Assembly (NCBI GenBank): GCA_023653025.1
Contig: JAMNXS010000033.1
Coordinates: 1 to 32,113, forward strand
Source: Burkholderiaceae bacterium
GTDB lineage: Bacteria > Pseudomonadota > Gammaproteobacteria > Burkholderiales > Burkholderiaceae_D
Length of the DNA: 32,113 nt
Direction of reading: 5' to 3'
A program made the position numbers and the translations under genes. Below are positions 1 through 7,666 of this stretch, one piece after another. Position 1 is the stretch's first letter, and every line of letters begins with the position of its first letter. The notes beneath the pieces were generated by a model, which worked only from the letters and a program-made list of their open reading frames with translations, ran no database searches and had not been told where the DNA came from.

Positions 1-767
1 ATGATGTCGTGCGTCTGCCGGTTGGTGTGGGTGATCCAGCACGGCAGCTGCTGCGGATGCATCGCCGCCGTGCCCATGACCGAGAACACGGGCACCGGGT
101 CGAGGTCGCCCGGCTGCTCGGTCATGACCGAAAAGTCGATCGTGCGTCCGTCGATGCGCGGCGGGGTGCCGGTCTTCAAGCGGCCCTGCGGCAGCTTCAG
201 TTCCTTGAGCCGCGCGGACAGGGAGGCCGCAGGCGGGTCCCCTGTCCGGCCGCCGGAATAGTGGTTGAGCCCGACGTGGATCTTGCCGTCAAGAAATGTT
301 CCTGCCGTCAGCACCACGGCGCGCGCACGAAAACGCAGTCCGATCTGAGTCACCGCGCCGACCACCTGGTCGCCTTCGATCATCAGGTCATCGACGGCCT
401 GCTGGAATAACCACAGATTGGGCTGGTTTTCGAGGCGTTGACGAATCGCGGCCTTGTACAAGATGCGATCAGCCTGGGCCCGGGTAGCACGAACGGCGGG
501 GCCTTTGGAGGAATTCAGGATGCGGAACTGTATGCCGGCTTCGTCGGTGGCAATCGCCATTGCGCCGCCCATCGCATCGACTTCCTTGACCAGGTGGCCC
601 TTGCCTATGCCGCCGATCGATGGGTTGCAGGACATCTGACCCAAAGTCTCGATATTGTGCGTCAGCAGCAGGGTCAGTTGTCCGGTACGGGCAGCCGCCA
701 GCGCGGCTTCCGTGCCGGCATGGCCACCGCCGACGACAATCACATCAAATTCTTTGGGGAAATCCAT
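1..767 (-). CDS. mnmG: tRNA uridine-5-carboxymethylaminomethyl(34) synthesis enzyme MnmG (N-terminal part)
   Basis: MnmG (GidA) works with MnmE to place the carboxymethylaminomethyl group on U34 of some tRNAs, using FAD in the cytoplasm. The reading frame starts at the ATG at 767 as [20 protein letters not shown], with the FAD-binding GGGHAG at residues 13-18. It continues through the family motifs [14 protein letters not shown] and GTPPRIDG and reaches the TNRQTHDI region at the window edge. About 255 of roughly 640 residues are visible; the C-terminus lies outside. A TATAAT-like -10 lies at 804-809 on the minus strand without a convincing -35. In many proteobacteria mnmG is followed by rsmG, parA and parB near the origin, which fits the parS sites just upstream. 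Identity is secure. Confidence 0.97.
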
Positions 768-885: not shown

Positions 886-901
886 GGTTTCACGTGAAAC
901 A
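886..901. promoter_or_regulatory. parS site 1 (ParB-binding palindrome)
   Basis: GGTTTCACGTGAAACA matches the bacterial parS consensus TGTTNCACGTGAAACA at 15 of 16 positions; only the first base differs. It lies in the gap between mnmG and the TSUP gene, 112 bp (centre to centre) from a perfect copy. ParB loads at such sites to start chromosome segregation. Confidence 0.85.
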
Positions 902-993: not shown

Positions 994-1782
994 TTACTGT
1001 TTCACGTGAAACATCAACGGCGCATACGCATCCCAACCGGTTTTCGCGATCAGGACGACGGCGACGCACAAAAACACCCTGCGCACAAAGCCCGTCCCTT
1101 TCAGAATGGCCAGACGTGCCCCCACCACCGATCCGCATACATTACAGACGGACATCACGGCGGCCAGCGTCCAAAGCGGCGGACTGTTTGGCACCAGCCA
1201 CGCGAGTGCCGCGAGGTTGCAGGCCACGTTGACGATTTTCGCAGTGGCCGACGCGCGAAGGAAGTCCAGCCCGAAACTGCGGATAAACAGGAAGACCAAA
1301 AAACTGCCAGTGCCCGGCCCGAAAAACCCGTCATAAAAGCCGATCACGGCACCGACACCAGCGGCGGCCAACCATCGGCGTCGGCCTTGCGCCGCCGGCT
1401 GATAGACGCTGCCAAAATCCTTGCGCCGAAACACATGAATAGCCACCAGCAGCAATATCACCGGCAGCAGTTGGCGAAACAACTCCGCCGGAACGCGGGT
1501 CAGTGTCCAGGCGCCAATGAAGGCAAAGATCAGGGCAGCGATCGACGCCGGCACCACGAGCGCCCTGTCGATCGGGATCCGACGCCAATAGGTTCGGGCG
1601 GCCCAGGCGGTGCCGCACAGACTCGCGATCTTGTTGGTGCCGAACAGCGTCGCCGGCAAGGCTTGCGGTAGCGTCGAAAACAGGGCCGGCACTTGGATCA
1701 GACCGCCGCCACCGACGACCGCATCGACCATGCCGGCGATGGCGGCAGCCAAGCCCAGCGTCAGATACAGGTCGGGACTCAA
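994..1782 (-). CDS. TSUP-family (TauE/SafE, DUF81) membrane permease
   Basis: This 262-aa integral membrane protein belongs to the TSUP family, whose members move sulfite, sulfoacetate or other organic and sulfur anions across the inner membrane. The evidence is a glycine-rich N-terminal helix with VVGGGGLIQVPAL, the GTNK motif near residue 49, the repeat-partner motif GFYDGFFGPGTGSF in the middle, and about eight hydrophobic segments. The start is a TTG at 1782; an in-frame stop lies a short way upstream and no nearby ATG fits. The ribosome site is weak. It follows the GMC dehydrogenase gene on the same strand by about 60 bp, so it could export or import an acid of that pathway, but an inverted repeat sits in the gap. 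Its last codons are a parS site. Substrate unknown. Confidence 0.88.
   Translation of the reverse strand: MSPDLYLTLGLAAAIAGMVDAVVGGGGLIQVPALFSTLPQALPATLFGTNKIASLCGTAWAARTYWRRIPIDRALVVPASIAALIFAFIGAWTLTRVPAELFRQLLPVILLLVAIHVFRRKDFGSVYQPAAQGRRRWLAAAGVGAVIGFYDGFFGPGTGSFLVFLFIRSFGLDFLRASATAKIVNVACNLAALAWLVPNSPPLWTLAAVMSVCNVCGSVVGARLAILKGTGFVRRVFLCVAVVLIAKTGWDAYAPLMFHVKQ
998..1013. promoter_or_regulatory. parS site 2 (perfect consensus), inside the 3' end of the TSUP gene
   Basis: TGTTTCACGTGAAACA is an exact parS consensus. It overlaps the last codons of the minus-strand TSUP gene, where it encodes the terminal FHVK of MFHVKQ before the TAA stop. Together with site 1 it marks a segregation centre, which in most bacteria lies within a few tens of kb of oriC. 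Confidence 0.92.
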
Positions 1783-3525: not shown

Positions 3526-5043
3526 TCACTTCGCGACCGGCATCGTGAATTCCGCGCCCTTGGCGATCGACTCCGGCCAGCGCTGCATGATCGACTTGTA
3601 GCGCGTGTAGAAGCGCACGCCCTCCTCGCCATAGACATGCGCATCGCCGAACAGCGAGCGCTTCCAGCCGCCGAATGAATGCCACGCCATCGGCACCGGA
3701 ATCGGTACATTGACGCCGACCATGCCGACTTCAATGCGGCGCGAGAATTCGCGCGCGGTATTGCCATCGGACGTGAACAGCGACACGCCATTGCCGAATT
3801 CATGCGCATTGATCAGCTTGATCGCCGCCGCGAGGTCCGGCACGCGCACCACGCACAGCACCGGCCCGAAGATTTCTTCGCGATAAATCGTCATCTGCGG
3901 CTGCACGTCGTCGAACAGCGTGCCGCCGACGAAAAAGCCCTGCTCATGACCCGGCACCGTGTAGCCGCGGCCATCGACCAGCAGTTTCGCACCCGCCTGC
4001 ACGCCCTGGTCGATATAGGACTCGATCTTGGCCTTGTGCGCGGCAGTGACCACCGGCCCCATTTCCGCTTCCGGATCCATGCCGTTGCGAATCTTCAGGG
4101 CTTTCACGCGCGGCTTTAGCCGCTCGATCAGTTCGTCGGCCACGCTGCCGACGGCAACGGCGACCGAAATCGCCATGCAGCGCTCGCCGGCCGAGCCATA
4201 GGCCGCACCGATCAGCGCGTCGACCGCCTGATCGAGGTCGGCGTCCGGCATCACCACCAGATGGTTCTTCGCGCCGCCGAGCGCCTGTACCCGCAACGGA
4301 TACACGCCCTTGCGCCTTGCCCCTTCGTGGTAGATGTATTCGGCAATCGGTGTCGAACCGACAAAGGACACAGCCTTCACGTCCGGGTGCTGCAGCAGCG
4401 TGTCGACCGCCAGCTTGTCGCCTTGCACGACGTTGAACACGCCATCGGGCAGGCCGGCGTCATGCAGCATCTCGGCCAGCATCAGCGACGGCGACGGGTC
4501 GCGCTCGGAAGGTTTGAGGACAAAGGTATTGCCGCAACCGATGGCCACCGGTGCCATCCACAAAGGCACCATCACCGGGAAATTGAAAGGCGTGATGCCT
4601 GCCGTGACGCCGAGCGGCTGCCGCAACTGCCAGTTGTCTATGCCACCGCCGATGTTGTCAGTGAACTGCGTCTTCAGCAGTTGCGGAATGCCGCAGGCAA
4701 ATTCGACGATCTCCAGGCCCCGCACGACCTCGCCCTTGGCGTCGCTGAAGACCTTGCCATGCTCGCGCGTGATGGCGGCGGCCAAATCGTCATGATGTTT
4801 TTCGATCAGTTCCTTGAACTTGTGCAGCACCCGGGCCCGCTTCAGCGGAGCCGTTTCTGCCCATGCCGGCGCCGCTGCCGCTGCTGCCGCCACGGCCGCA
4901 TTCACCTCGTCTGCAGCGGCCAGCGCCACCTGTGCAATGGCTTCGCCGGTGGCCGGGTTGGTCACCGGCTGGCTGCGCCCACTGCGGGAAGCCACCGTCT
5001 GGCCGTTGATGTAATGCGAGATCAGCGCATCGGCAGGTTTCAT
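3526..5043 (-). CDS. mmsA: CoA-acylating (methyl)malonate-semialdehyde dehydrogenase
   Basis: A 505-aa aldehyde dehydrogenase that converts malonate or methylmalonate semialdehyde to acetyl- or propionyl-CoA with CO2 release, using NAD and CoA. Visible motifs are the cofactor-binding [13 protein letters not shown] and [21 protein letters not shown], and the catalytic Cys289 in GSAGERCMA. The position usually held by the general-base Glu in non-acylating relatives reads GGAKNH, which is typical of the MmsA subfamily. Full length for the family. The ATG at 5043 is preceded by AAGGAAA. The gene heads an operon with the adjoining GMC dehydrogenase (stop and next ATG touching) and diverges from a LysR gene across a 108-bp promoter region with LysR-type dyads. 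Valine catabolism is the other known role, but other val genes are absent here. Confidence 0.92.
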
Positions 5044-5106
5044 AAGCTTTCCTTTTGTTTTGGACGAGATTCTCTGCAGCTTACTCTGGCAGATTCAAGC
5101 TTTCCA

Positions 5107-5118
5107 ATGAGTTATCAT
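5107..5118. promoter_or_regulatory. second dyad in the mmsA/LysR divergent promoter
   Basis: ATGAGTTATCAT has 4-bp arms ATGA and TCAT around GTTA. It lies beside the stronger T-N11-A dyad and could be an accessory LysR contact site near the mmsA promoter. Confidence 0.35.
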
Positions 5119-5127
5119 CCAAGTCGT

Positions 5128-5144
5128 CATAAGCAGAACTTATG
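5128..5144. promoter_or_regulatory. LysR-type T-N11-A box in the divergent promoter
   Basis: CATAAG (5128-5133) and CTTATG (5139-5144) are perfect inverted arms around CAGAA, and T5130-N11-A5142 fits the LysR recognition pattern. It lies just upstream of the LysR start codon, as expected of a site used both for autoregulation and for control of the divergent mmsA operon. Confidence 0.6.
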
Positions 5145-5151
5145 GATTCGC

Positions 5152-6027
5152 ATGGATTTGACACAACTGCGTGCGTTCATCACCGTCGCACGCGAAGGCA
5201 ACCTGACCCGTGCCGCAGAACGGTTGCACCTGACCCAGCCCGCGGTCAGTCTGCAGATCAAGGCGCTGCAGCGCAGCCTGAACATCGTGCTGTTCGCCCG
5301 CAGCCCTGCCGGCATGACGCTGACCGCCGACGGAGCGAAACTGCTGCCGCTGGCCGAGCGGGTCATGGCCAGCAGCCGCGAACTGCAGCAAGCCGCACAT
5401 TCTCTCAATTCCACGCTCAGCGGCAAGCTGGCCATCGGCACCATCCTCGATCCCGAATTCACCCGCCTCGGCGCCTTTCTGAAGGGATTAGTCGAAGGCT
5501 ATCCGCAAATCTCAACCGAACTGCAGCACGGCATGTCGGGCTGGGTCCAACAGCGGATACGGCACGGCGACCTCGATGTCGGCTACTACCTCTGTGACCC
5601 GCTGCCGCAGATGCAGGCCATGCCCTTGCGCAGCTTCACCTATCAGGTGCTGGCGCCGGCCGGCTGGGAAAAGCGAGTGACCGGCAAGGGCTGGTCGCAG
5701 CTGGCGCGGATGCCGTGGATTTGGTCGCCGCCCGAATCGGTGCATCACCGACTATTGTCGGCCGTCTTTGCCGCGCATGACGCCGCGCCGCCCCGGGTGG
5801 CGCTGGTCGATCAGGAGGCGTCGATGCTGGACCTGGTGAAATCCGGTGTCGGGCTGTCGCTGGTAAGAGACTCGATCGCGCTGCGCGAGTCGCAGGCGCA
5901 CGGGCTGGTGATGGCCGACAGCGTCAGCCTGACGACTCGCCTGTCCTTCATTTGCCAGGCAAGCCGGAAGGCAGAACCGGCCATCGCGACAGCCTTCCAG
6001 CTAATGGAGAGCGTCTGGCATCGCTAG
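5152..6027 (+). CDS. hpdR: LysR-family regulator, probable activator of the mmsA-GMC operon
   Basis: A 291-aa LysR-type transcriptional regulator. The winged helix-turn-helix spans residues 1-60 (MDLTQLRAFITVAREGNLTR, then AAERLHLTQPAVSLQIKAL). A periplasmic-binding-like effector domain occupies the remainder. The reading frame stays open far upstream across mmsA, but the family almost always begins at MDLxQLRxF, which fixes the ATG at 5152. It is divergent from mmsA with LysR-type dyads in the gap. By analogy with HpdR/C3-LysR of Pseudomonas it would respond to 3-hydroxypropionate; that ligand is inferred from neighbours only. Its 3' end points into the candidate replication origin and I see no clear terminator behind it. 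Confidence 0.85.
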   Translation: MDLTQLRAFITVAREGNLTRAAERLHLTQPAVSLQIKALQRSLNIVLFARSPAGMTLTADGAKLLPLAERVMASSRELQQAAHSLNSTLSGKLAIGTILDPEFTRLGAFLKGLVEGYPQISTELQHGMSGWVQQRIRHGDLDVGYYLCDPLPQMQAMPLRSFTYQVLAPAGWEKRVTGKGWSQLARMPWIWSPPESVHHRLLSAVFAAHDAAPPRVALVDQEASMLDLVKSGVGLSLVRDSIALRESQAHGLVMADSVSLTTRLSFICQASRKAEPAIATAFQLMESVWHR

Positions 6028-6059
6028 CCGCAGCCTGCCCTGCGCGGCCGAACATCAAT

Positions 6060-6370
6060 GCCGGTCATGTGGATAAGCATTGGGATAACTGCCATCGCAA
6101 AAGTGGACAAGTCGCGAAAAACCGGCAGGCCGTTTTTTTATCCAATTACTGTCCTTGCCATTCCCGGTACTCTGTTCAGGATTTATCTTGTTTGCACTTC
6201 ATTGATTTCAATGAACAAAAACCGGTTGTCCACAGAAAGTCGTCCAGCTTATCCATTACTACCAGTCTTAAATACAAACCTTGAAGAACAACTGAAAGAA
6301 AAAAACACGTGCGCGCAAAACATCGCCACAGCGTGGACAAGGCTGTGAATATCCGGTGAATAAATTGTGT
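6060..6370. other. oriC: candidate chromosomal replication origin (DnaA-box cluster)
   Basis: This AT-rich stretch between two convergent LysR genes contains a perfect DnaA box (TTATCCACA, minus strand, 6068-6076). One-mismatch boxes are TTGTCCACA (6226-6234), ATATTCACA (minus, 6344-6352) and TTATTCACC (minus, 6355-6363). Two-mismatch boxes lie at 6080-6088 (minus), 6102-6110 (minus), 6138-6146, 6249-6257 and 6332-6340 (minus). Poly-A/T stretches at 6133-6139 and 6297-6305 could help unwinding. parS sites lie about 5 kb away and mnmG, the oriC neighbour in enterobacteria, is close. No real gene is visible in 6028-6575. In Burkholderiales oriC is usually beside dnaA, which is not in view, so a DnaA-titration cluster is the alternative. 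Confidence 0.65.
6198..6215. repeat. perfect palindrome within the candidate origin
   Basis: TTCATTGATTTCAATGAA has 8-bp arms around a TT centre and lies between the DnaA boxes. It could bind an origin-associated regulator or extrude as a hairpin; no known factor is assigned. Confidence 0.5.
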
Positions 6371-6527
6371 GTATCTTCCATTCATCGGCTCTCTCGCTTT
6401 CTTCTTATTATCGTCAGCATGACGTGTGGTCTGCTTGAGAAGCCGTAAACACCCGACAACAGCCGTTCTGCCGATGAACACTCTTTGTGCAAGCTCAGTC
6501 AGCGCCGTCATGGCCATCGGATGAACG

Positions 6528-6552
6528 AAAAAAAAGCCGGACGAGCCGGCTT
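6528..6552 (-). terminator. intrinsic terminator of the minus-strand LysR gene
   Basis: On the minus strand AAGCCGG pairs with CCGGCTT across a 5-nt loop and is followed by eight T residues. It lies 24 bp past the LysR stop at 6576 and would stop that gene's transcript before it enters the DnaA-box region. Confidence 0.88.
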
Positions 6553-6575
6553 CCATAAAACTGGAGGTCACACTG

Positions 6576-7529
6576 TCAGTTGGACGAATCGTTGTTGTCC
6601 GTTCTTGCCAATACCCCCGAGTTGCGCAACTGCTCGCGCAACCAGCGATGGCCTGGACTGCGGGCATCACGCTCGTGCCACAGCATGTCGATGTGCACAT
6701 CGGGCAGCTTGAACGGCAAATCCTTCTGGATCAGCTGGTTCGACATGCCGGTGGCGTCGATCAGGTGGCGCGGAATCACCATGATCAGATCGGACGCGGC
6801 GACCACCTTGCCGGCAGTAAAGAACTGGTTCACGGTCAGCAGGATGCGGCGCTCGCGGTTCAGCGACACCAGCGCATCGTCAACCAGCCCGCGCGCCCGG
6901 CCGGAAAAGCTGACCAGAAGGTGGTTGGCCTCGCAGTACAAGTCAACCGTCAGTTCCTTGTCCGCCAGCGGATGCTCCTTGCGCATCACGCACACGTATT
7001 CGCCCGCATACAAGCGCTCGTGTCGCACCGGTGTTTCGGTCGAGCCTTGCAGTTGTGCGACCACGCCGGGGAAAAAACCTATGGCAAGGTCGATATCGCC
7101 GCGCAGCAGCAGCGGCCGCGGTTCACGCGTCGTCAGCGGCACCATGCGTATGTCGATGCCCGGCGCTTCGTTCTCGATCAGGCGCACCAGCGGCGGCAGC
7201 AACAGGCCGGCCGTCGCATCGGCCATCGCCATGCGGAAGGTGGCATTGGCCTTCGCGAGTTCGAAGGTGCGCGGAGCGACAGCTTCTTCCAGATCGGCCA
7301 GCGCCCGCCGCACGGCAGGCCACAGCGACTCGGCACGCGCGGTCGGTTTGACGCCGTGGGCGGTACGGATCAGCAATTCGTCGCCGAGCGCGTCGCGCAG
7401 GCGCTTGACTGCGTTTGAGACCGCCGGCTGCGTCATCGCCAGCCGGTTGGCAGCCCGTGTCAGGTTCTGCTCGGTCATGACTGCGTCGAAAACCCTTAGC
7501 AGATTAAGGTCCAGTGTCAAAAAGCTCAT
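6576..7529 (-). CDS. LysR-family transcriptional regulator
   Basis: A 317-aa LysR-type regulator. The DNA-binding domain is at residues 5-65 (LDLNLLRVFDAVMTEQNLTR, AANRLAMTQPAVSNAVKRL, then TPTARAE-like KPTARAE), followed by a substrate-binding domain. The style resembles the NodD/NahR/PcpR group rather than the CysB group. I chose the ATG at 7529 (MSFLTLDLNLL); upstream in-frame codons (to 7631) give an unusual hydrophobic extension and lack a ribosome site. It diverges from the small gene at 7667 across 137 bp of AT-rich DNA that includes a GATAT...ATATC dyad, so that gene is a possible target. Effector unknown. It terminates cleanly at the hairpin at 6528-6552. Confidence 0.88.
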   Translation of the reverse strand: MSFLTLDLNLLRVFDAVMTEQNLTRAANRLAMTQPAVSNAVKRLRDALGDELLIRTAHGVKPTARAESLWPAVRRALADLEEAVAPRTFELAKANATFRMAMADATAGLLLPPLVRLIENEAPGIDIRMVPLTTREPRPLLLRGDIDLAIGFFPGVVAQLQGSTETPVRHERLYAGEYVCVMRKEHPLADKELTVDLYCEANHLLVSFSGRARGLVDDALVSLNRERRILLTVNQFFTAGKVVAASDLIMVIPRHLIDATGMSNQLIQKDLPFKLPDVHIDMLWHERDARSPGHRWLREQLRNSGVLARTDNNDSSN

Positions 7530-7666
7530 TACTTGGCAAAACGTGAATTGGGTTCCGAGATATACCACAAAAATATGGGTGATATCATGACATGAAAGTA
7601 TTTTTATATCAGGCGGGTGTTTATACTGCAACGCAACACGACTTTATCCGCCTGCCAGGATCCATC

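Follow-up and report, generated by a model that had tools for sequence, protein, structure and literature searches.

A very probable chromosomal replication origin upstream of mnmG and apart from dnaA in a Burkholderiaceae bacterium

Where does chromosome replication begin in a poorly known genus of the Burkholderiaceae? The question is raised by a 32,113-nucleotide stretch of DNA (the window; contig C58 of a 2.89-Mb draft genome of 126 contigs, 96% complete), in which the initial annotation proposed that a gap between two convergent LysR genes is a chromosomal origin lying apart from dnaA. Both LysR genes do point into the gap, the left one (with a helix-turn-helix and a substrate domain) ending at 6027 on the plus strand and the right one at 6576 on the minus strand, and dnaA was found outside the window, on contig C102. 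The GC content of the 548 bp between the two genes is 0.48, versus 0.60 to 0.72 in the surrounding window. Ten DnaA boxes with at most two mismatches occupy positions 6068 to 6416, where such boxes are denser than in any other 500 bp of the window. One of these (6068, minus strand) is perfect, as annotated, and is among only five perfect boxes in the whole draft; eight carry two mismatches, in keeping with the several that had been claimed. Of three claimed one-mismatch boxes a single one exists (6226, plus strand), the other eight imperfect boxes having two mismatches, so that the clustering stands and the one-mismatch count was overstated. Dinucleotide shuffles of 6028 to 6575 contained a mean of 1.5 boxes, and none of 2,000 reached ten; a chance cluster was ruled out, since the number of boxes is far above that of the shuffles.

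The elements within the gap are listed with their genomic neighbours in Table 1. The trio region of the window reads CTTATCCATTACTACCAGTCTTAAATACAAAC, with two clear trios followed by a break, where the genus version is CTTATC(T/C)ATTACTA(C/T)... The first trio lies about 20 bp from R4, and the trios adjoin the weak box at 6249. Both R4 and the trio repeat of the window are weaker than the family consensus.

Table 1. Coordinates of the candidate origin, its neighbours in the window, and the two units found in dnaA-dnaN gaps of relatives
Feature	Position	Strand	Remark
Full conserved origin unit, from R1 through the AT-rich element	6068-6282	+	profile E=9.3e-19
R1, perfect DnaA box TTATCCACA	6068-6076	-	
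Weak DnaA box TTATCCCAA, 2 mismatches	6080-6088	-	GGATA recurs there in most relatives
Weak DnaA box TTGTCCACT, 2 mismatches	6102-6110	-	
Weak DnaA box TTATCCAAT after T-tract	6138-6146	+	TTTTTATCCA recurs in relatives
IHF-like site AATCAATGAAGTG, 1 mismatch	6195-6207	-	fixed place in unit
R4, DnaA box TTGTCCACA, 1 mismatch	6226-6234	+	158 bp from R1
Weak DnaA box TTATCCATT	6249-6257	+	edge of unwinding element
DnaA-trio-like repeat ATTACTACCAG	6255-6265	+	lower strand 3'-AAT-GAT-5'; third repeat degenerate
Presumed DNA unwinding element (DUE), AT-rich, TCTTAAATACAAAC...AAAGAAAAAAACAC	6266-6310	.	conserved block straight after trios
Left part of second unit, without R4 or DUE	6333-6402	+	265 bp after first; E=7.5e-4
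parS, 1 mismatch	886-901	.	motif scan
parS, perfect	998-1013	.	motif scan
mnmG (gidA), 5' part	about 3-752	-	remainder on contig C71
Left LysR regulator	5152-6027	+	predicted true start about 5152, inside ORF 4261-6027; HTH from ORF residue 298
Right LysR regulator, BsrA/LeuO-like	6576-7631	-	
Unit in dnaA-dnaN gap (locus L111)	G043:C23:7462-7666		relative
Unit in dnaA-dnaN gap (locus L113)	G036:C13:51805-52006		relative

Comparison of mnmG-centred loci from 80 Burkholderiales genomes and further genomes of the host's family revealed that box clusters often lie upstream of mnmG. Relatives share a pair of outward-facing boxes, TGTGGATAA...TTATCCACA, 157 to 159 bp apart (158 bp in the window). 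Of 145 family genomes, 90 contain the exact outward pair, with one to three occurrences apiece, and none contains a reversed control pattern of the pair. In a set of 120 genomes drawn from across the order, the exact pair was found in three, two of which belong to the host's family, so that the R1-R4 spacing appears to be largely a trait of the family. Alignment of the units extends over their full length, including R1, the GGATA boxes, the middle TTTTTATCCA box, and the IHF-like site; the last, at unit positions 127 to 130, has at most one mismatch in 19 of 26 units, versus 2.3% expected from shuffles. Directly after R4, most of the family has GTTAACTACTACTACTATTTATATATATAAA or close variants, followed by an AT-rich block. 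On its lower strand, GTTAACTACTACTACTATTTATATATATAAA gives 3'-GAT-GAT-GAT-5', which is the DnaA-trio motif known from the basal unwinding system. The trio repeat is conserved in the window's genus, its family-wide form being GTTAACTACTACTACTA, and family units carry about four trios.

Under stricter filters, the unit was detected in 133 of the 145 family genomes and in 41 of 44 genera, never in more than three copies. The same filters gave no match in the other 12 genomes, 8 of which are at least 90% complete, so incompleteness is not the whole explanation. Some relatives carry complete units as inverted pairs, 0.5 to 2.8 kb apart, in place of the usual tandem (G128:C1:4057306-4060343, G140:C10:228110-229091, and G115:C1:221793-224827). 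Two others contain groups of five and seven perfect DnaA boxes within 1.2 to 2.5 kb (G070:C1:773966-775207 and G054:C1:3590858-3593349); these groups lie far from dnaA and mnmG, are not among the listed origin-unit matches, and are possible titration or reactivation sites.

The window is recognized by profiles from which it and its genus were left out. A profile of 25 R1-R4 units matched it at E=4.9e-14 (nhmmer, among 3.1 Mb). A second profile, of 218 positions and extended by the trio and the AT-rich block, returned the complete unit from the host's own genome, and its only further match there was the adjacent half-unit, so the unit forms a single locus; at the dnaA of this genome the 218-position profile had no match. 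Four other genomes of the genus also contain the complete unit, with a partial second unit 261 to 262 bp farther on in three of them. The genus of the window would have retained a single complete unit together with a half that has decayed.

The proposed neighbourhood of mnmG and two parS sites within 6 kb was borne out: mnmG lies 5.3 kb and the parS sites about 5 kb from the cluster. Two parS sites in the window compare with 0.03 expected by chance, and the rest of the draft genome contains no perfect or one-mismatch site. In several loci of Janthinobacterium, Rugamonas, Massilia, and related genera, a consensus parS is missing within 10 kb of mnmG (L018, L022, L023, L024, L026, L027, L029, L031, L035, and L036). 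The mnmG gene itself is split over two contig ends (window positions 1 to 752 and G000:C71:25136-26395); because the matched residues overlap (203 to 248), the two contigs, C71 and C58, are probably chromosomal neighbours.

The position of the unit could be mapped in 42 genomes that have the unit, mnmG, and dnaA all on one contig. In 40 of these it is found upstream of mnmG, at a distance of 0.2 to 25 kb, and not at dnaA, which is 7 to 363 kb distant; four of the 40, all of one genus, have dnaA about 7 kb from the unit, closer than mnmG is. The other two genomes (G036 and G043), which belong to different genera, have a unit that starts about 60 bp after dnaA and extends to dnaN. The occurrence of the same unit in the dnaA-dnaN gap in two genera and near mnmG in most suggests that the origin and dnaA became separated within the family, by relocation of either the origin or dnaA. 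The initial annotation had proposed a displaced origin with an enterobacterial-style mnmG neighbourhood, most Burkholderiales having oriC beside dnaA. The position holds, with mnmG 5.3 kb away and dnaA distant, and displacement from dnaA is the rule in the host's family and is not peculiar to this organism.

An origin beside dnaA nevertheless has to be weighed, in which case the window cluster would be a site like datA or DARS, titrating DnaA or acting in regulation; datA-like clusters are known in other bacteria. The gene order of contig C102 is mnmE-yidC-yidD-rnpA-rpmH/dnaA-dnaN-gyrB (names read by eye from translations and order, dnaA alone being matched by a family model). Upstream of dnaA are one perfect box, another of the five in the draft, about 120 bp away (G000:C102:4147-4155), and two weak boxes; the dnaA-dnaN gap is about 58 bp, and no box cluster was found in either the rpmH-dnaA or the dnaA-dnaN intergenic region. 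With so few boxes and so short a gap, neither region resembles an origin. A single perfect box about 100 to 200 bp upstream of dnaA recurs in relatives (G033, G070, G128, G110, and G073). This recurrence could be taken in favour of a dnaA-side origin, yet a lone box fits dnaA autoregulation, and it stands without a profile match at the dnaA of this genome. A titration site, moreover, needs no unwinding element, yet the cluster has one, with parS within about 5 kb.

GC skew in relatives bears on the same choice. For the closed genome G030, the switch in GC skew was placed at 318 kb (95% interval, 238 to 390 kb; block-permutation p=0.02). Units in this genome lie at 277.7 and 278.1 kb, parS at 266 kb, and dnaA at 558 kb; the skew minimum is about 40 kb from the unit, within error. 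The skew favours the unit over dnaA, because the interval holds the unit and excludes dnaA. The contiguous scan covers 440 kb and ends at 490 kb, short of dnaA, and the exclusion of dnaA derives from the mostly positive skew at 310 to 490 kb and 0.85 to 2.05 Mb. The signal was too weak to discriminate in G070 (plain and fourfold-site skew) and in G128 (plain skew), and the rRNA operon directions in four complete relatives are compatible with both candidate origins. Taken with the G030 switch, which speaks against it directly, an origin at dnaA appears highly unlikely.

The gap might instead be a regulatory region or a double terminator of the LysR genes in which boxes occur by chance. LysR genes do flank it on both sides, and it contains one terminator-like hairpin (6532 to 6554). 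Since both genes point into the gap, neither promoter can lie there, and a promoter scan of the gap found no sigma-70-like site. The number of boxes is far above chance, and the unit is kept where the flanks differ, the left LysR gene not having been found at the loci of G047 and G135 although the origin unit is retained. Neither many copies per genome nor units apart from the origin region were seen, and such a reading is hardly credible. That the cluster is the origin of a plasmid or a secondary chromosome is extremely unlikely. Nothing speaks for this specifically beyond a contig of merely 32 kb, and the same contig carries mnmG and a GTP-dependent PEP carboxykinase; in one-contig relatives, the single unit locus per genome is on the main chromosome.

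Positions 6068 to 6310 of the window are therefore best read as the chromosomal oriC, very probably so, and the origin probably includes the half-unit to about 6400. This reading, which upholds the initial proposal, draws on the conserved unit, its uniqueness in the genome, its position upstream of mnmG across the family, and the skew of G030, all of them evidence from DNA sequence. The DNA elements, their conserved sequence and spacing, their uniqueness, and their position are observed; from known origins we infer binding, melting, and initiation. DnaA would bind the outward-facing R1 (6068) and R4 (6226), and bending of the DNA by IHF at its site would allow ATP-DnaA to occupy the intervening weak boxes. 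A DnaA filament would grow from R4 and the weak box at 6249 onto the DnaA-trio strand (6255 to 6265) and open the adjoining AT-rich DNA, where the helicase DnaB would be loaded. ParB on the two parS sites 5 kb away would then segregate the new origins.

The oriC of Escherichia coli lies beside mnmG (gidA) and far from dnaA. Its outermost boxes, R1 and R4, face outward about 181 bp apart and enclose weak boxes and an IHF site, and its unwinding element is outside R1. The window resembles it in the nearby mnmG, the distant dnaA, the outward R1 and R4 (TGTGGATAA...TTATCCACA), and the weak boxes and IHF-like site that these enclose. Unlike E. coli, it has its R1 and R4 158 bp apart and its unwinding element after R4, and the family has clear trio repeats and relatives with two or three complete units.

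In the basal unwinding system (BUS), described for Bacillus subtilis and many other bacteria, a strong box, a degenerate box, DnaA-trios (3'-GAT-5'), and an AT-rich block follow one another (PMC8287927, PMC6669920), and the window has the same order of elements. The published criteria for a BUS ask for three or more NAN trios no farther than 16 bp from a DnaA box (PMC8287927). The trio run of the window is short and interrupted, and the distance of about 20 bp from R4 exceeds 16 bp unless the box at 6249 is the adjacent box.

Within the Burkholderiales, chromosome 1 of Cupriavidus metallidurans CH34 was described in 2010 as having, some 90 kb from dnaA, a GC-skew switch with three perfect DnaA boxes inside 213 nt (PMC2864759). 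It is likewise an origin displaced from dnaA, a likeness drawn from the published description; unlike the window, it is given no relation to mnmG in the part of that report consulted (PMC2864759). The origin region of Burkholderia cenocepacia chromosome 1, the exact position of which its authors call uncertain, shares DnaA boxes, parS, an IHF site (IHF-like in the window), and an AT-rich block with the window (PMC4948915). No 158-bp unit turned up within 10 kb of mnmG in those Burkholderia loci that we examined. A partial literature search, made without DoriC, found no published origins of the host's family. Displaced origins are thus already known in the Burkholderiales (Cupriavidus), and it is the modular build in the relatives that is unusual.

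A likely origin is now placed for a poorly known genus and for nearly the whole family (133 of the 145 genomes sampled). Position 1 has been set at dnaA in several complete relatives, and coverage-based growth-rate estimates, gene-dosage work, and plasmid building all depend on the true origin. The evidence is evenly poised as to whether the family uses a modular origin. Its module would be a 218-bp unit with the anatomy of a complete origin (R1-R4, IHF site, trios, and DUE), of which a genome would carry between one and three complete copies, either tandem or inverted. Some genera would have the unit between dnaA and dnaN and most would have it near mnmG, so that the unit or dnaA would have moved within the family. 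If true, this would provide a natural series in which to ask if a single unit is enough and what follows when an origin leaves dnaA. Because the family includes genera with the unit beside dnaA and others with it hundreds of kilobases away, the separation of oriC from dnaA is directly testable.
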